Positions 25-19,232 of a stretch of DNA of 25,308 nucleotides are shown one piece after another (the stretch's first letter is position 1; each line of letters begins with the position of its first letter). Location of the stretch: the IMG/VR virus record IMGVR_UViG_3300048838_000719, positions 1-25,308 of that record; one strand, written 5' to 3'. Below the pieces are notes generated by a model. That model had not been told where the DNA came from. It saw only the letters and a list, made by a program, of their open reading frames with translations, and did not search any database. This DNA comes from a virus. A program made the translations under genes and the position numbers.

Positions 25-125
25 GCACAACTGTCGGTTCAAGCGGAGTGCCCACGGCGTTCAGCTTGGTCTTGTTTCTCGGGCTGTAGTGCCGCCGTGG
101 TCACCCGCTTAACCTGGCGTTAGGC
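25..125 (+). other. attC site 1
   Basis: R'' GCACAAC (25-31), spacer TGTCG, L'' GTTCAAG (37-43), left arm 44-59, loop of about 33 nt, right arm 93-107, L' CTTAAC (108-113), spacer CTGGC, R' GTTAGGC (119-125). The arms pair almost fully, both ending in CCACGGCG when read 5' to 3' on opposite strands. The left L box carries one unpaired C. This is the polarity of classical attC sites such as that of aadA cassettes, with the cassette boundary at G^TTAGGC. Confidence 0.9.
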
Positions 126-133
126 CCTTGAAT

Positions 134-826
134 TCAGCATGGCCAGTGGCTCAAGCCAAGATCGTTCGGGCTCATGTCTTCAGCCTTGCGCAGCGGCGCT
201 GCTGTCTCGATCTCTGCATCTACCCGCCCCAGTAGGCACCCGGATTCATGCGGCTCGCCATCATCGGCTCCGCAGTCCGGGCACGCGCCGTCTTCTGTTG
301 CGCACTCCCAGCGGTTTGCAGAAACCTCGCGCAGCAGTGCGCGCAGCCGGTCCGCCTGCGCCCCGTGTGCGCCCGCGATGTCGGCCCAAGCAGAACAGCG
401 ATCATCGGCCTCTCGAATGCGCTCGGCGCAAGCTGCCTCGGCAGATCCAAAAGCCATCGACCACGCTTCCCACGACGCTTGCGTCTGCATCAAACGGTAG
501 CCTTCACCGCTGCGCTCGATGGCGTTTGGCCACTTGTAGGCATCGCTGGCCCACGCCTCGAACGATTCACGCGCGAATGGCTTGCGGTATGGCGCCAGAA
601 CGGCGGCCTTGGCCGCCAAGTCCTTCGCCGCTTCCTGCATCTGTAGCAGGCAGGCGATCGTGGTGGCAGTTGCTCGCGCAACCTCGCCAGCGGCGTATTC
701 GCGCATCTGCTGGTCGGTGTATCCGTAGTCCCAGCCCAAGGCCGTTTTGGGCGGCAGCGGGCCTAACTGGTCGCTCAACGGGACTGCCAACGGCTTGTCT
801 GGCTCGCTGCGTTCGCTTGTCGTCAT
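134..826 (-). CDS. Hypothetical phage/cassette protein with C-terminal Cys/His cluster
   Basis: A 230-residue protein of unknown function. Its N-terminal part contains the stretch GYTDQQMREYA (residues 36-46), a style common in small early proteins of beta-proteobacterial phages. The middle is Ala/Glu-rich and probably helical. Near the C terminus Cys175, Cys182, Cys185, His193 and Cys197 form a possible zinc-binding knuckle (CPDCG...HESGC). The ATG at 826 is preceded on the minus strand by GGAAGGAAG at good spacing, so this start is preferred. It lies inside the loop of attC 2, and about the first 22 residues are translated from the attC arm. The gene stops 9 nt short of the R' box of attC 1. 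It fills a cassette whose attC points the other way. Confidence 0.7.
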   Translation of the reverse strand: MTTSERSEPDKPLAVPLSDQLGPLPPKTALGWDYGYTDQQMREYAAGEVARATATTIACLLQMQEAAKDLAAKAAVLAPYRKPFARESFEAWASDAYKWPNAIERSGEGYRLMQTQASWEAWSMAFGSAEAACAERIREADDRCSAWADIAGAHGAQADRLRALLREVSANRWECATEDGACPDCGADDGEPHESGCLLGRVDAEIETAAPLRKAEDMSPNDLGLSHWPC

Positions 827-879
827 GGTTCGCTTCCTTCCGTTCGGGCCGTTGTCAGCCCGTTAGCTCTGCGTTATGG
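761..879 (+). other. attC site 2
   Basis: R'' GCCTAAC (761-767), spacer TGGTC, L'' GCTCAAC (773-779), left arm GGGACTGCCAACGGC, large loop, right arm GCCGTTGTCAGCCC, L' GTTAGC (862-867), spacer TCTGC, R' GTTATGG (873-879). The arms pair with one or two mismatches and the extra C is again in the left L box. The loop holds the ribosome-binding site and ATG of the leftward gene 134-826. Confidence 0.85.
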
Positions 880-927
880 CGCCCGGCACCATCGCGGCAC
901 GCCCACGAAAATAGTTCATCGCACCCA

Positions 928-956
928 TTGACAGGCTGTGCGCAGTGTCCTACATT
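928..956 (+). promoter_or_regulatory. Strong sigma70-type promoter with overlapping operator
   Basis: TTGACA (928-933), a 17-nt spacer and TACATT (951-956) form a near-consensus promoter reading right into the three-gene operon 1008-1654. An inverted repeat flanks and overlaps the -10: TGCGCAGTGTCC (939-950) and GGACATGCGCA (959-969). Its position over the RNA polymerase site suggests repression. The obvious candidate binder is the HTH protein encoded as the third gene of the operon. The binding itself is inference. Confidence 0.75.
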
Positions 957-1007
957 ACGGACATGCGCAGGGCAATCAGGCCCGCGCAAGTTGGCAAGGA
1001 GGCCACG

Positions 1008-1247
1008 ATGTCGCAGCAAATCAACCCCGCCTGGGTCCACCACAACAACCTGTACAACGAGGGCGGCGAAGGCTTCAACCCGCACCCCAAGTACATCAGC
1101 GCCGCGGCGGTCACCAAGGCCCCTGCCCGCATGATCGCCGGCAAGATGCGCACGCAAGCCGACGCGCTCAAGTTTGCCCGCACCTGCCTGTCGGGCGAAC
1201 AGCGCAAGGCTTTCGAGGCCGAGGTTGCGCGCGCCTTTGGAGCCTGA
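1008..1247 (+). CDS. Small unknown protein, first gene of cassette operon
   Basis: A 79-residue protein not recognised as a member of a known family. The N-terminal third is rich in Asn, His and aromatic residues (NPAWVHHNNLYNEGGEG), followed by a helical basic/acidic segment ending in FEAEVARAFGA. The ATG at 1008 is chosen over an in-frame ATG at 945 because AAGGAGG lies just upstream, and 945 would fall within the promoter. It is the first gene of a plus-strand operon driven by the 928-956 promoter, separated by 3 nt from the next gene. It sits in the only cassette of the cluster with genes in the classical polarity. Position and size fit an anti-defence (acr-like) candidate, but this is context only. 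Confidence 0.8.
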   Translation: MSQQINPAWVHHNNLYNEGGEGFNPHPKYISAAAVTKAPARMIAGKMRTQADALKFARTCLSGEQRKAFEAEVARAFGA

Positions 1248-1250
1248 GCC

Positions 1251-1439
1251 ATGCGCTACGTCACCTACACCCGCACCGCCGATGGCATCGTGTCGCGCAC
1301 CCACGGGCGCGTCGTCATGCCAAGCCGCGAGCGCGCCGCCGATTACCCGCACCGCGAGCGGCTGCAAGGCTGGCCGGAGCGCTCGGTGTACTGGACGCGC
1401 AGCACCGGCGCTGCTCTGGGTCTGGCGCCTCTGCGATGA
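1251..1439 (+). CDS. Small unknown protein, second gene of cassette operon
   Basis: A 62-residue basic protein with no recognised domain. It opens with MRYVTYTRTADGIVSRTHGR, which could form a short beta-hairpin, and continues Arg-rich. The ATG follows the previous stop by 3 nt, with GGAG about 8 nt upstream. Its stop overlaps the next start (ATGA), so the three genes are probably translationally coupled. No function can be assigned. Its place between a small unknown gene and an HTH gene under a private promoter makes it a second acr-like candidate. Confidence 0.75.
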   Translation: MRYVTYTRTADGIVSRTHGRVVMPSRERAADYPHRERLQGWPERSVYWTRSTGAALGLAPLR

Positions 1440-1654
1440 GCCGGCTGCTTGTCGAGTGCGGAGAGGCCCTCTACGGGCCGCAGTGGCAGTCCGCGCTGGC
1501 CCGCGATCTGGGCGTTGCCGACCGCACGATGCGACGCTGGGTTGCGGGCACAACCGACGTGCCATCTGGCTTGTATCCCGACCTACTGCGCCTGACGCAA
1601 GAGCGGGCAGCAGTGCTCGACGCACTCGCTCCACGGCTGCGCACGGCGCCATAA
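1436..1654 (+). CDS. Small HTH DNA-binding protein (Aca-like candidate)
   Basis: A 72-residue protein with a clear helix-turn-helix: the segment ALARDLGVADRTMRRWVAG (about residues 18-36) reads as helix, turn and recognition helix. It is followed by VPSGLYPDLLRLTQERAAVL. Small HTH proteins of this look occur in phages and cassettes. It is the last gene of the operon from 1008 and the likely autorepressor acting on the inverted repeat at 939-969 (inference). The start overlaps the previous stop as ATGA. The stop TAA lies inside the R'' box of attC 3 (CCATAAC), as in classical cassettes. Arrangement and size match anti-CRISPR-associated regulators, but homology to any Aca family was not tested. 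Confidence 0.75.
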   Translation: MSRLLVECGEALYGPQWQSALARDLGVADRTMRRWVAGTTDVPSGLYPDLLRLTQERAAVLDALAPRLRTAP

Positions 1655-1742
1655 CACGTCGCTCGAAATGACCCGCGCCGGCATACGTCGGTGCGAGTCG
1701 TTGCATTTGTGCGGGCGCGGTCATTTCAGCTTTGCGTTAGGC
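1649..1742 (+). other. attC site 3
   Basis: R'' CCATAAC (1649-1655), spacer ACGTC, L'' beginning GCTCGAAATGACC, loop, right arm ending GGTCATTTCAGC, spacer TTTGC, R' GTTAGGC (1736-1742). The arms pair well and the left L box has the extra C. It terminates the operon 1008-1654, whose stop codon is in the R'' box. Confidence 0.8.
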
Positions 1743-1744
1743 CC

Positions 1745-2095
1745 TCAAGCCAGGGTCATCAGCGCGCACTGCAAACCTTCGCGCGCCCGCCGGTCCTCGT
1801 CTTCCAACGCCAGCAGCCGGCGCAGCAGGTCGCCACGCTCGCGGCAGTTCAGCGCAAGCCAGGCGGCGCACTCGTCGCGCAGCTTTTCCACGGCTTCGCG
1901 CTGCGTCCTGAAATGCGTGTTCACGTAGCAGGTGTCGCCCTCGCTGTCTTTGGCTGGCCACGGGCCGCCGCGCACGGATCTCACTTGGCAGGTGGTGGTG
2001 TCCACCTTCCAATACGTGTCGGCCAGCGCCGGGCCTATCATGGCGGTCGAGCAGACCGCTTCCGGCGTGGCGTTCGTTGCTTGGTCAGTGCTCAT
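1745..2095 (-). CDS. Hypothetical protein starting inside attC 4
   Basis: A 116-residue protein of unknown function. The N-terminal 30 residues are low in conserved features and largely encoded by the degenerate attC 4. They are followed by a likely folded part (TYWKVDTTTCQVRSVRGGPW) and a helical C-terminal half rich in Arg, Glu and Leu (CRERGDLLRRLLALEDEDRR). The ATG at 2095 overlaps the end of the upstream frame that stops at 2085, so coupling is likely; a weak GAGGTAAG lies about 10 nt upstream. The stop is 3 nt from the R' box of attC 3. The protein-like composition of this frame, against the low-complexity opposite strand, supports it as real. Confidence 0.65.
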   Translation of the reverse strand: MSTDQATNATPEAVCSTAMIGPALADTYWKVDTTTCQVRSVRGGPWPAKDSEGDTCYVNTHFRTQREAVEKLRDECAAWLALNCRERGDLLRRLLALEDEDRRAREGLQCALMTLA

Positions 2096-2121
2096 CGCGT
2101 CTGCTTACCTCTGCGTTTGGC
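2033..2121 (+). other. Degenerate attC-like site 4
   Basis: R''-like GCCTATC (2033-2039), L'' GGTCGAGC (2045-2052), arm AGACC, loop, arm GTCTGCTTACC with L' GCTTACC (2103-2109), spacer TCTGC, R'-like GTTTGGC (2115-2121). The outer boxes each deviate from consensus, but the L boxes pair (GGT-GAGCAGAC against GGTAAGCAGAC) with one extra C on the left, in the same orientation as its neighbours. The TCTGC spacer is shared with attC 2 and attC 9. It is probably a decayed or weak site. Confidence 0.5.
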
Positions 2122-2426
2122 CCCAATGCCTTACGCAGCGCGTCTACATGCTCGTCCATGAGGCCGTTGGGGTCCCACACGCCGCCGCGCACCACGGTCC
2201 ACGCGGTCACGCAGCGTTGCGCAGTTCGGCGCCAGCTTCTGATCTAGTTGGTCAGGCGCGCGTTCTCGGCGTGCAGCCGCTCCATCTCGGCCGCAGCCTC
2301 GTCGTACAACTCTCCGCTGCCCCACGCAACGGTGTAGTCGTCGCCCGCCTCTTGCAGTCGCTCCAGTAGCGGCCTAACTGTCGGTTCAACCGGACCCGCC
2401 ACGGCGGGCTGCGTTGTCTCATTCAT
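2085..2426 (-). pseudogene. Small cassette gene interrupted by an in-frame TAG
   Basis: The frame opens at ATG 2426 (preceded by AAAGGAC on the minus strand) and encodes 60 residues, including a probable coiled-coil ending HAENARLTN. It then meets TAG at 2244-2246. The same frame continues open for another 52 codons with protein-like sequence (VRGGVWDPNGLMDEHVDAL) and ends KALGPNAEVSRRDEH at 2085. That end overlaps the start of the next gene by 11 nt. This fits a 113-residue gene with an amber mutation. A frameshift pair is an alternative, because the +1 frame after 2246 also reads plausibly (DQKLAPNCATLRDRV). The N terminus is translated from attC 5, and the C terminus crosses attC 4, where GPNAEVS matches the GPNARLT encoded by attC 5 in the gene upstream. 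Confidence 0.5.
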
Positions 2427-2473
2427 CGTGCGTCCTTTGCGCCGTGTCGGGCGCGGTTAACCTGGCGTTAGGC
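2372..2473 (+). other. attC site 5
   Basis: The best-formed site of the window. R'' GCCTAAC (2372-2378), spacer TGTCG, L'' GTTCAAC (2384-2390), left arm to CACGGCG, loop of about 30 nt, right arm CGCCGTGTCGGGCGCGG, L' GGTTAACC (2455-2462), R' GTTAGGC (2467-2473). The arms pair over more than 20 bp with three mismatches and one extra C in L''. It closely resembles attC 1. The loop contains the stop of the gene 2419-2730 and the start of the frame at 2426. Confidence 0.92.
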
Positions 2474-2730
2474 CCCGCAATGCACTCTGCCCTGCGCAGC
2501 AGCATCTTCAATGCTCCTGCTGAGTCGCCCGCTTCTAGTTGCGCGATGGCGGGCGCCAGCGTTGCAAGTTCTGCCGCCATCCGCACGCGCAGCGCCTCTC
2601 GCACTGCTGCCTCTGCGGCGCCCAGCTTCCCGGTCGTGTCGTCCCCCGGCCTGGCGCCGTTCCATTCGCGCATCTCTCCGTACTCGTCAACCAACGCCAT
2701 CAGGGCCGTCACGTCGTCTTCAATGCCCAT
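2419..2730 (-). CDS. Hypothetical acidic helical protein crossing attC 5
   Basis: A 103-residue protein with no recognised family. It opens MGIEDDVTALMALVDEYGEMREW, then is Ala/Glu/Arg-rich and probably helical. The ATG at 2730 is preferred over an in-frame GTG at 2748 because GAGGAAA lies 5 nt upstream. Its last about 18 residues, GPNARLTAPDTAQRTHDE, are encoded by the right arm and loop of attC 5. The gene therefore spans the predicted cassette crossover at 2467/2468. Its stop overlaps the next start (ATGAATGA), giving translational coupling within the attC loop. Confidence 0.7.
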   Translation of the reverse strand: MGIEDDVTALMALVDEYGEMREWNGARPGDDTTGKLGAAEAAVREALRVRMAAELATLAPAIAQLEAGDSAGALKMLLRRAECIAGPNARLTAPDTAQRTHDE

Positions 2731-2755
2731 GTTTTCCTCGCTTGCCACCAGCGTG

Positions 2756-2843
2756 GCCTAACCTGTCGCTCAACCGGAGCGGCAACGGCATGGGTGGCTA
2801 CTGGCCGGCATCGTGCGCCGCCCGGTTAGCTCCCACGTTATGC
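2756..2843 (+). other. attC site 6
   Basis: R'' GCCTAAC (2756-2762), spacer CTGTC, L'' GCTCAAC (2768-2774), arm CCGGAGCGGC, loop, arm GCCGCCCGG, L' GGTTAGC (2824-2830), R' GTTATGC (2837-2843). The inner arms pair with one offset, and the extra C is in the left L box. The stop codon of the leftward gene 2838-3098 lies within the R' box. Confidence 0.8.
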
Positions 2844-3325: not shown

Positions 3326-3376
3326 CTAAGTTCCCGGCCTAACAGCCGCAGCAATCGCTTTCCGCTTCTCAACCAT
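3326..3376 (-). other. 16-codon micro-ORF in the attC 7 region
   Basis: The minus strand reads ATG followed by 15 codons (MVEKRKAIAAAVRPGT) and a stop 9 nt before the start of the gene at 3316. Its last part is read through the R'' box GCCTAAC (encoding AVRP), just as the frame at 2426 reads TVRP. It may be a leader peptide, or the start of a former cassette gene left after rearrangement. No strong ribosome-binding site is seen. Confidence 0.25.
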
Positions 3377-16768: not shown

Positions 16769-17128
16769 ATGGCCCAGCCCAACCCCGCGCGCCGCACACG
16801 GCTTGCAGTCGCTGCCACCACCGTCTGCGCGCCCGCGCGATCGGCAGAGCCCGACCTGGTCGACACCATCCTCGACTACCTGCGCGTCGCGGGCCTGCTG
16901 TCAGCCCGCGACGCCGAGCTCGACGAAATCGCCAGCGCCGTGCGCGAGGTATTCGCCGGCGAGCAGGCGTACATCGCCGCGCGCCCGGCCAGCGCCCGCC
17001 AGCAGCTTGCCGCCGACGTGCTAAGGGCTTTCAACGGCAGGAACGCGACCGAACTGGCGCGGGTGTTCTCGATCGGGCGGACGACGGTCTATCGGCTGCT
17101 CAAGCAAGCGGGGCGCAGGGCGCCATAA
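16769..17128 (+). CDS. Mor-like HTH protein
   Basis: A 119-residue protein. The C-terminal half matches the Mor/C pattern of Mu-type activators: GEQAYIAARPASARQQLAAD followed by the HTH LARVFSIGRTTVYRLLKQAG (96-115). In Mu, Mor activates the middle promoter. Here the gene sits after the terminase genes and may regulate late transcription (inference). The N-terminal 25 residues look disordered. The TAA stop at 17126-17128 falls in the R box of attC 8 (CCATAAC), so its 3' end touches the cassette boundary; whether the gene was itself once a cassette is open. GGAAG about 9 nt upstream of the ATG is the only ribosome-binding signal. Confidence 0.75.
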   Translation: MAQPNPARRTRLAVAATTVCAPARSAEPDLVDTILDYLRVAGLLSARDAELDEIASAVREVFAGEQAYIAARPASARQQLAADVLRAFNGRNATELARVFSIGRTTVYRLLKQAGRRAP

Positions 17129-17180
17129 CGCTGCCGGTAACGCGCGGCCGTAGGCCGTCGCGTTGACCGGCTTGTTAGGG
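17123..17180 (-). other. attC site 8
   Basis: Read on the minus strand: R'' CCCTAAC (17180-17174), spacer AAGCC, L'' GGTCAACG, arm CGACGGCC, loop TAC, arm GGCCGCG, L' CGTTACC, spacer GGCAGC, R' GTTATGG (17129-17123). The arms pair along nearly their full length, with the extra C in L''. At 58 bp it is short, like attC sites of aadA type. The Mor-like stop codon lies in its R' box. Confidence 0.85.
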
Positions 17181-17209
17181 CTTGGTGCCGAAGCGAAAGA
17201 AAGGAACGC

Positions 17210-17974
17210 ATGACGACAGAAGTTACCGTAGGCGAAGCGAGGCTGCTCCAGGGCGACTGCGTAGAGCTGATGGCCGATCTTGACCCGTGCAGCGTGGACG
17301 CGGTAATTACCGACCCGCCCTACATGATTGGAGCCATCTCTACCGGCGACGCGAGCGCGAAGGCCGGCGGCTGGGCCGACATGGAGAACAGCGCCTGGTG
17401 GTATGCCGAGTGGCTGAAGTTGGCGCGGCGCGCACTGAAGCAAGACGGGTTCGCGTGCGTGTTCGGGAACTGGCGCAGCCTGCCGACCCTTTTGTATGCG
17501 TTCAGCAAGATCAAGTGGCCGGTGGATTCGCTGCTGATCTGGGACAAGGAATGGATCGGTCCGGCAGGGCCACGCCAACTGCGCCCGACCTATGAGGTGG
17601 TGTTGTTTGCTGGCATGCCAAAGGCTCGCATTGACGACCGCAGTGCGAGCGACGTTTACCGCTGCCGCTGGATGGCCGGCAACAGCAAGACGACCGACCA
17701 CGCCGCCGAGAAGCCGGTGGATCTGATGCGCCACCTGATACGGCTGACGACGAAGCCGGGCGGCTTGGTGCTCGACTGCTTCATGGGCAGCGGGACGACC
17801 GGCGAGGCCGCTCACCTTGAGGGACGCCGCTTCATTGGCATGGAGCGCGAAACCGAATACTTCCACGGCATCGCGGTCCCGCGCGTGCGTGCTGCAGCAC
17901 AACAGCAACCGCTGCTTCCGCCAGCGCCGCAGCCTGTGGCCGAGCAACAAGGGTTCGATCTGGAACAGCCCTAA
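17210..17974 (+). CDS. DNA methyltransferase, beta class (N6-A or N4-C)
   Basis: A 254-residue protein with the motif order of beta-class amino-methyltransferases. Catalytic DPPY (35-38) comes first, after LLQGDCVELMADL and AVIT. Then HAAEKPVDLMRHLI (164-177) precedes the SAM-binding LDCFMGSGTTGEAA (188-201) and GRRFIGMERETEYF. It would methylate adenine N6 or cytosine N4 at an unknown site, probably protecting phage DNA from restriction. No cognate endonuclease is present, so it is an orphan enzyme. The ATG at 17210 has AAAGGA at good spacing. The TAA stop is within CCCTAAC, the R' box of attC 9. It sits in a cassette between terminase and portal genes. Confidence 0.9.
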   Translation: MTTEVTVGEARLLQGDCVELMADLDPCSVDAVITDPPYMIGAISTGDASAKAGGWADMENSAWWYAEWLKLARRALKQDGFACVFGNWRSLPTLLYAFSKIKWPVDSLLIWDKEWIGPAGPRQLRPTYEVVLFAGMPKARIDDRSASDVYRCRWMAGNSKTTDHAAEKPVDLMRHLIRLTTKPGGLVLDCFMGSGTTGEAAHLEGRRFIGMERETEYFHGIAVPRVRAAAQQQPLLPPAPQPVAEQQGFDLEQP

Positions 17975-18027
17975 CGCAGAGTGAAGGGGCTTGCGCCAGC
18001 AAGTCCCGCTTGCACGCCGGGTTAGCC
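17969..18027 (-). other. attC site 9
   Basis: Read on the minus strand: R'' GGCTAAC (18027-18021), spacer CCGGC, L'' GTGCAAG, arm CGGGACTTGC, loop TGGC, arm GCAAGCCCC, L' CTTCAC, spacer TCTGC, R' GTTAGGG (17975-17969). The arms pair well and the extra C is in L''. It shares the TCTGC spacer with attC 2 and 4 of the left cluster. Confidence 0.85.
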
Positions 18028-18046
18028 GGCAGGAAGGGCAGAAGAA

Positions 18047-18226
18047 ATGCCAGATTTTGAACGAGTAACAGACAGCCTGCGTATTTTCTCCGCAAAGGAT
18101 GCCGTGACGCGAGAGTGGGCGCGAGGCTATACGGCAGGAAAGAGCCGGGCGCGATATGAAGTTCTGGCTGTTGTTGTCGGGATTTACTTTGGAATAGCCG
18201 TCTACGGGAAACTGTTTGCCGGCTAA
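18047..18226 (+). CDS. Single-TM miniprotein in its own cassette
   Basis: A 59-residue protein, shorter than most gene callers accept. The N-terminal half is charged (MPDFERVTDSLRIFSAKDAV, TREWARGYTAGKSRARYE). The C-terminal half is a hydrophobic helix (VLAVVVGIYFGIAVYGKLFA), giving a likely N-in, one-TM topology. A purine-rich GGAAGGGCAGAAGAA precedes the ATG. The TAA stop lies in GGCTAAC, the R' box of attC 10, so gene plus attC 9 make a compact 252-bp cassette. Its AT-richer composition contrasts with the flanking late genes. Function unknown; membrane-acting anti-host or superinfection-exclusion roles are possible. Confidence 0.7.
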   Translation: MPDFERVTDSLRIFSAKDAVTREWARGYTAGKSRARYEVLAVVVGIYFGIAVYGKLFAG

Positions 18227-18340
18227 CGCCTAGCTCACCTGGACCCAACGGCATGCACGAACTTTCGACCACCCACACTGCTACCGAGCCGCCACCGCTG
18301 TTGCCTGCCGTTGGGGCTCAGGTGCAGCGCAGTGTTATGC
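18221..18340 (-). other. attC site 10
   Basis: Read on the minus strand: R'' GCATAAC (18340-18334), spacer ACTGC, L'' GCTGCACC, arm TGAGCCCCAACGGCA, loop of about 50 nt, arm TGCCGTTGGGTCC, L' GGTGAGC, spacer TAGGC, R' GTTAGCC (18227-18221). The arms pair over about 20 bp with few mismatches. The extra base is again on the R'' side. Confidence 0.85.
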
Positions 18341-19179
18341 GTGGCGCGACGGCGGCCCCGAAGCGCCCGCTGGTGCGCTACCACGGCGGCAAGTGGAAGC
18401 TGGGCGCGTGGATCATTCGCCACCTGCCTGCGCACCGCACATACGTGGAGCCGTTCGGCGGTGGCGCCAGCGTGCTGCTGCAGAAACCACGCAGCTACGC
18501 CGAGGTTTACAACGACTTGGACGGCGAGATCGTGAACCTGTTCCGCGTGGCGCGGGACCAGGGCGAAGCGCTGGCCAGCGCCTGCGAACTGACCCCCTTC
18601 GCCCGCGGCGAGTTCGAGCAGGCATACGAGCCCAGCGGCGACCCGCTGGAGCAAGCCAGGCGCACGCTGGTGCGCAGCTTCATGGGCTTCGGCAGCGCCG
18701 GTATCAGTGGCCAGGTGACGGGCTTCCGCTCCAGCGTGACGCGCAGCTACACCACGCCGGCCAGCGACTGGATGAACTACCCCGCGCACTTGCGCGCGGT
18801 GGTGCAGCGGCTGCGGGGCGTGGTGATCGAGAACCGAGACGCGCTGGACGTGATGAGCCAACACGACGGCGCCGACACCGTGCACTACGTGGACCCGCCC
18901 TATGTGCACAGCACGCGCGGCATGCGGACGCGCGCACCGGCCTACCGGCACGAGATGGACGACCAGCAGCACCGCGAGCTGGCGATCCACCTGGCGGGCC
19001 TGCGCGGCATGGTGGTGGTGAGCGGCTACCGCTGCCCTCTGTACGACGAAGTTTTTGATGGGTGGCAGCGCATCGACGCCGCTGCGCATGCGGATGGCGC
19101 GCGTGACCGAGTGGAGAGCCTTTGGCTATCGCGGGGATGCCCGCAGGCTGGGCTGTTCGACACGCATAACGCAATCTAG
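18337..19179 (+). CDS. Dam-type (D12 class) adenine-N6 DNA methyltransferase
   Basis: A 280-residue protein with the alpha-class order of D12 methyltransferases. LVRYHGGKWKLGAWI (12-26) and SAM-binding VEPFGGGASVLL (37-48) come first, then a target-recognition region, then catalytic YVDPPYV (184-190) and a final WLS-containing end. It probably methylates adenine in a short site, masking phage DNA from host restriction or affecting packaging. The ATG at 18337 lies within the R'' box of attC 10. An in-frame ATG at 18253 in the attC loop would add 28 residues with no family resemblance, but loop starts do occur in this window, so it remains possible. Neither has a strong ribosome-binding site. 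The ORF end crosses an R-like box GCATAAC. Confidence 0.9.
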   Translation: MRGATAAPKRPLVRYHGGKWKLGAWIIRHLPAHRTYVEPFGGGASVLLQKPRSYAEVYNDLDGEIVNLFRVARDQGEALASACELTPFARGEFEQAYEPSGDPLEQARRTLVRSFMGFGSAGISGQVTGFRSSVTRSYTTPASDWMNYPAHLRAVVQRLRGVVIENRDALDVMSQHDGADTVHYVDPPYVHSTRGMRTRAPAYRHEMDDQQHRELAIHLAGLRGMVVVSGYRCPLYDEVFDGWQRIDAAAHADGARDRVESLWLSRGCPQAGLFDTHNAI

Positions 19180-19196
19180 GGCGCAGTTTTGCGCCC
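19179..19196 (+). terminator. Hairpin after the dam-like gene
   Basis: GGGCGCA-GTTT-TGCGCCC is a perfect 7-bp stem starting at the stop codon of the methyltransferase gene. There is no T tract, so it may stabilise the 3' end or be a weak terminator, or belong to a decayed recombination site next to the GCATAAC box. Confidence 0.4.
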
Positions 19197-19202
19197 CTAC
19201 CC

Positions 19203-19232
19203 GGATAGTGGCGCAAGGATGCGCCACTATCC
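19203..19232. repeat. Perfect 12-bp inverted repeat
   Basis: GGATAGTGGCGC and GCGCCACTATCC flank a 6-nt loop. No T tract follows. It lies in the 177-nt gap before gpW, after the last cassette. It could be a processing or termination hairpin or a protein-binding site. The GGCGCA/TGCGCC core is shared with the preceding hairpin. Confidence 0.6.

Follow-up and report, generated by a model that had tools for sequence, protein, structure and literature searches.

Inverted gene cassettes at integron-type attC sites in two arrays of a lambda-type tailed phage and their probable assignment to a phage-specific integron system

The window analyzed here, i.e., the complete virus record IMGVR_UViG_3300048838_000719 comprising 25,308 bases, represents a lambda-type tailed phage as deduced from its GpA terminase and lambda-family portal. 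It carries two arrays of integron-type attC sites (S1 to S9) and gene cassettes, namely an early array at positions 25-2843 and a second array at 17123-19215, located between the terminase and portal genes. The latter was overlooked in the initial annotation of this sequence. Sites were scored with two covariance models. Model R2 was built from attC arms of other phages only (the window and loci G002, G005 and G006 were left out), and model R1 from the arms of 37 bacterial attC only.

Within the early array, all attC sites are located on the + strand. S1 (25-125; R2 36.3 bits, E 2.9e-7; fold z -4.3) has a degenerate left R box, GCACAAC, and the contig ends just past it. Open reading frames (ORFs) and a codon model were used to define the genes between the sites. 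Cassette A (134-826, - strand) encodes a protein of 230 amino acids without a Pfam or PHROG match, to which no function was assigned. It is antisense to its attC, and the loop of S2 (761-879; R2 45.7 bits, E 9e-10) carries GGAAGG and an ATG for this - strand gene. Cassette B (945-1654, + strand) comprises three small genes at about 1005-1247, 1251-1439 and 1436-1654. The last of these encodes a small helix-turn-helix protein of the YdaS/Cro-like type (phrog_12690, E 2e-13) with a 76% relative in contig L276. S3 (1649-1742; R2 40.0 bits, E 3e-8) is followed by the antisense gene of cassette C1 (1745-2095, - strand, 116 amino acids), starting within S4 (2033-2121; R2 31.2 bits, E 6.6e-6). The R boxes of S4 are degenerate (GCCTATC / GTTTGGC), and the site, previously regarded as weak, is now supported by its score. 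The likewise antisense gene of cassette C2 (2244-2426, - strand, 60 amino acids) starts in the loop of S5 (2372-2473; R2 45.3 bits, E 1.2e-9), and the antisense gene of cassette D (2419-2748, - strand, 109 amino acids) precedes S6 (2756-2843; R2 44.5 bits, E 1.9e-9; R1 21.4 bits).

The second array features attC sites on the - strand and genes on the + strand, all of them antisense. It starts with S7 (17123-17180; R1 34 bits, E 3e-6; R2 36.4 bits), followed by an N6/N4 DNA methylase gene (17210-17974, 254 amino acids; PF01555, E 6.6e-38) and S8 (17969-18027; R2 26.7 bits, E 1e-4). An ORF of 59 amino acids (18047-18226) showing no Pfam match, the long and weaker site S9 (18221-18340), which was recognized by arm pairing only and missed by both models, and a D12-class adenine DNA methylase gene (18253-19179; PF02086, E 7.1e-19; longest ORF, start uncertain) complete the cassettes. 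The array ends with an attI-like element, designated element E (19164-19215, - strand), consisting of a G^TTA box, 31 bases, a second GTA(G) box and a GC hairpin between the boxes. Exact copies of element E were found in six other viral contigs at differing genome positions and terminate an array wherever the array was readable. Based on its position at the array start, the 31-base spacing and the hairpin, element E is a candidate attI. Its identity with a known bacterial attI was rejected, as only three chance-like 18-mers were retrieved among 84,980 genomes.

The sites on the + strand follow the canonical top-strand layout GCCTAAC-TGTCG-GTTCAACC...GGTTAAC-CTGGC-GTTAGGC. They show paired R''/R' and L''/L' boxes, a long imperfect hairpin and one extra base in the L'' box, the latter as reported in the initial annotation. 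Model R2 matched S1 to S8, with E-values of 7e-6 to 9e-10 in the early array, although its training sites were picked for paired arms and its short calibration renders E-values rough; R1 matched S6 and S7 as well as many sites in related phages. Neither model produced a match at E <= 1 in a background set of 98 other phage loci totaling 1.18 Mb. All five sites counted in the initial annotation (1, 2, 3, 5 and 6) are attC. Single-strand DNA folding of the attC bottom strands yielded z-scores of -2.1 to -4.3. GTTRRRY motifs alone occur at background frequency in the whole window (21 versus 21.4 expected), and reliance on paired boxes rather than on motif matches was therefore justified. By structure and score, the window sites are thus confirmed as integron-type attC, and array borders at R' boxes are an indirect hint that IntI may recombine them at G^TT of the bottom strand. 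Rfam returned nothing at gathering scores. A further GTTAGGC at 3337 was rejected, since it lacks a hairpin (z +0.8). Moreover, an alignment of whole bacterial attC with MAFFT was dropped because arms were misaligned, and arm-only alignments were used instead; cmsearch with filters off lost long-loop attC that the default run recovered. No intI was found on the record. Hence, at least two attC lie close together without intI nearby, i.e., a cluster of attC sites lacking integron-integrases (CALIN), and the 25-kb fragment does not harbor a complete integron.

A strict pattern for the window's attC subtype was searched in viral contigs and in 398 Pseudomonadota genomes. It was present in 36 viral contigs and in 0 of the 398 genomes. 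IntI scoring above the family cut-off was encoded in 3 of the 34 new pattern-matching records. One of these, L269, was set aside and is a probable host integron, its cassettes being in sense orientation (5:0) and its IntI of the bacterial type. Phage G437 (55 kb; terminase, tape measure and phage integrase genes) encodes an intact IntI of 365 amino acids. The IntI of the 55-kb phage (P0001) reaches 412.7 bits on TIGR02249 (cut-off 265), and the IntI-specific insert was read in its sequence. In phage G427, encoding portal, TerL and capsid proteins, intI is truncated at the end of the contig. Both phages possess IntI, attI and attC array in this order, i.e., the layout of a complete integron.

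A scan with the phage IntI revealed 43 viral loci with IntI relatives. Among these proteins, 27 phage IntI form one clade inside the IntI family (support 100/98), whose best identity to sampled bacterial IntI is 56%. No member of this clade was present in 50,697 GenBank phages (best match 56%). IntI1 of the class 1 integron is placed near the clade in the tree, the phage proteins being at most approximately 56% identical to it. Phage_portal and tape-measure genes were detected in eight and five, respectively, of the 23 intI-positive contigs tested. Upstream of phage intI, a conserved attI of the form GTTAC-hairpin-GTCGAATTSA-G^TTRGGC was observed. The distance from GTTA box to R box is 31 bases in most phage attI, 41 in a few and 31 in element E; attI1 also bears a GTTA box (DR1), at 32 bases from the R box. 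Contigs L296, L297 and L336, which carry IntI genes, originate from the same metagenomes as relatives of the window. More divergent IntI-like genes were noticed in viral contigs L327, L328, L330 and L331. As an array of antisense genes (2:0) is likewise present in L330, inverted arrays may exist outside the main clade. In addition, an IntI-like gene annotated as xerD is located at KX853513.1:4725-5642 in virus Rctr41k from a methane-oxidizing enrichment (47% identity to the phage IntI).

Integrons are regarded as bacterial elements, the uniform direction of their cassettes being attributed to transcription from the integron promoter. In the window, genes alternate with attC as previously described; it had been missed, however, that those of cassettes A, C1, C2 and D, like those of the late array, oppose the polarity of their attC. 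Polarity was determined by the extra base in the L box, a rule validated on bacterial integrons. Among clusters of at least three attC, 105/105 cassette genes at 25 viral loci are antisense to their attC, whereas 53/53 genes at 15 bacterial integron loci are sense (Fisher p 2.5e-43). The arrays beside phage-clade IntI are antisense. Since longest-ORF direction calls were unreliable in GC-rich phage arrays (15 antisense, 7 sense), the codon model was used instead. Because attC are nearly palindromic and the call depends on a single bulged base, polarity could in principle have been miscalled, the genes being ordinary sense cassettes. This is very improbable, as attC are directed away from intI by the same rule both in bacterial integrons (for the most part, in 40 IntI-gene flanks from the 398 Pseudomonadota genomes, of which 72 were IntI-positive) and in intI-positive phages. 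In the latter, the array is found on that side of intI where attI is located, with attC pointing away and genes running toward intI. Without any reference to attC, the genes of phage arrays are directed toward intI on its own strand and those of bacterial arrays away from it.

The class 1 integron shares with the phage system attC pointing away from intI and an attI in between, but its cassette genes are sense and read from Pc, whereas those of the phages are directed toward intI. Sedentary chromosomal integrons resemble the phage arrays in their long attC arrays and small genes of unknown function; they differ in the opposite gene orientation and in that the phage arrays are located within a phage operon.

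Cassettes are shared among phages. Cassettes of the related phage L001 are present in intI-positive L332/L333 (92.6% over 734 bases) and, adjoining attI, in intI-positive L298 (86% over 356 bases) and L314 (83% over 304 bases). The window site S5 has relatives in L312 (95% over 67 bases) and G427 (77%), intI-positive phages being among these. Furthermore, a whole cassette of about 840 bases, from R' to R', is common to L262 and G427. Neither plasmids nor GenBank phages contained a close match to the array DNA tested.

These data bear on the possibility that the phage picked up a bacterial CALIN from a host chromosome by chance, with host IntI possibly acting on it. Such clusters were reported in phages: integrons and 17 CALINs were found among 10,705 phages, and IntI1 was active on 5/6 virulent-phage attC (Qi et al. 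2023, PMC9892861). The window likewise lacks intI, and its attC fit the bacterial model. Like the window, those phages carry attC arrays, some with methylase genes, but the attC genes of TJE1 (2/2) and Va_90-11-286_p16 (8/10) are sense, IntI is of bacterial type where present, and inverted arrays, a phage IntI clade or a phage attI were not described. In view of the opposite gene polarity, the cassettes and attC common to other phages, the lack of close plasmid or GenBank phage matches and the absence of the strict attC pattern from the 398 Pseudomonadota genomes, chance pick-up is considered unlikely. The array is not simply a rare borrowed bacterial attC cluster awaiting a host integrase, since many phage contigs with such arrays encode IntI of a separate clade and have an attI of their own. 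The earlier proposal that the phage uses a host integrase or ferries cassettes between integrons is in line with attC in a phage, the missing intI and breaks at R' boxes; it is too narrow given the inverted genes, the phage-shared pool and the IntI clade with attI present in many contigs.

Comparison with relatives revealed array differences bordered by R' boxes, as the initial annotation had anticipated for cassette presence and absence. L001 (G002) is 94-97% identical to the window in early genes, but its early array, comprising five attC, is wholly unlike that of the window. DNA 89% identical to the window's late-array D12 methylase gene resides as a cassette in the L001 early array. L151 (G005), probably part of the same phage as G002, which it adjoins with 19 bases of overlap, is 98% identical to the window, whereas the late arrays differ. 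Homology between the two is regained at the R' box preceding element E (19167). Moreover, G004 and G007 are approximately 97% identical and collinear nearly throughout, but contain seven versus three attC. Their variable block has R' boxes at both borders (directly after ...GCGGGCCTAACGCT at one and between ...CCC and TAACGCAATCTAGG at the other), and they have three cassette pieces in common in differing order.

Start codons were frequently located within attC. An SD-like (Shine-Dalgarno) site plus start codon was found inside 24/76 attC of at least 85 bases versus 1/75 shorter ones, and the corresponding ORFs read through the attC arm into the cassette gene. Three ORFs of the window, starting at 826, 2095 and 2426, do so within S2, S4 and S5, respectively. 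Such start sites, shared attC with different neighbors and breaks inside some genes would also be expected if the hairpins were former attC now serving as translation or transcription elements, and if similar hairpins recombined by homology, so that arrays came to differ without any IntI. This explanation is considered unlikely. Among sites selected for paired arms, R boxes and the bulged L box persist although the sequences are otherwise very different, array borders coincide with the R' box, and intact IntI and conserved attI lie beside the same arrays in other phages.

Based on these results, the window most probably represents a phage that draws on a phage-specific integron system without carrying intI, with two inverted arrays within a phage operon. 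Each cassette combines an attC with a single small phage gene or a few of them, the gene being antisense to the attC top strand. The attC would form the 5' leader of the cassette gene, the hairpin loop of long (about 100 nt) attC often providing the Shine-Dalgarno site and start codon, and cassettes would be read within the phage operon. Arrays start at the attI-like site. If the process resembles that of known integrons, IntI would cleave attC as folded bottom strands, and attI would be the site of cassette insertion; as attC polarity sets insertion polarity, the inverted genes would come to lie co-directional with the phage operon. As no intI is present in the window phage, the integrase has to be provided in trans, most likely as a phage IntI from a co-infecting phage or resident prophage, or as a host IntI. 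In view of the inverted genes, the phage-shared pool and the phage IntI clade with its attI, a bacterial host integrase need not be involved. The outcome would be that phages swap accessory genes such as those for DNA methylases, whose products may counter host restriction.

A separate integron class of phages is somewhat favored as an extension of this interpretation. The phage IntI clade and its own attI would circulate a phage-only pool of inverted cassettes, and phages like the window would keep an attI-like site plus array and borrow the integrase. Owing to their inversion, cassettes would be expressed from phage promoters but stay silent in bacterial integrons, thus keeping the pools apart. 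Neither inverted cassettes nor the phage IntI clade were described in the open-access papers found, subscription papers and preprints being outside the search. If correct, phages renew accessory genes by site-specific cassette exchange, including DNA methylases that could blunt restriction, and the system provides a handle on how genes gain attC and on whether phage and bacterial cassette pools connect.

Several observations weigh against the assignment to a phage-specific integron system. Cassette B is the sole window cassette in canonical (sense) orientation. On the backbone side, two breaks lie inside genes rather than at attC, namely the other break between window and L151 (17324, within a methylase gene) and the break between window and L001 (3595). 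Ends of shared stretches coincide with R' boxes in 7/29 cases versus 2.7 at random (longer stretches, attC-only matches removed), and this modest excess implies that homologous recombination also contributes. Like the window, six related records contain no intI; none was found in the sister contigs G002 and G005 (about 38 kb together). Furthermore, all intI-positive phages are metagenomic contigs, some of them devoid of hallmark genes by the few families tested, and cassette exchange is deduced from comparisons of sequences.

Further observations concern individual related contigs. With 28 bits on TIGR02249, the integrase of L001 belongs to the ordinary phage integrases and was rejected as IntI. 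Beside it, at L001:13740-13880, an apparent 3' part of a tRNA gene (GGTTCGACTCCGGGTCGCGCCTCCA) was observed, which is a likely attP core and could point to the host. In G437, an AAA-type ATPase gene (L282:5088-7163; PF13476/PF13175) is located past the array and is possibly a further accessory gene. Finally, both contig ends of G004 (L165:1-160 and the end of L166) carry a 42-base tandem repeat located in a methylase gene and probably join there into a circle.

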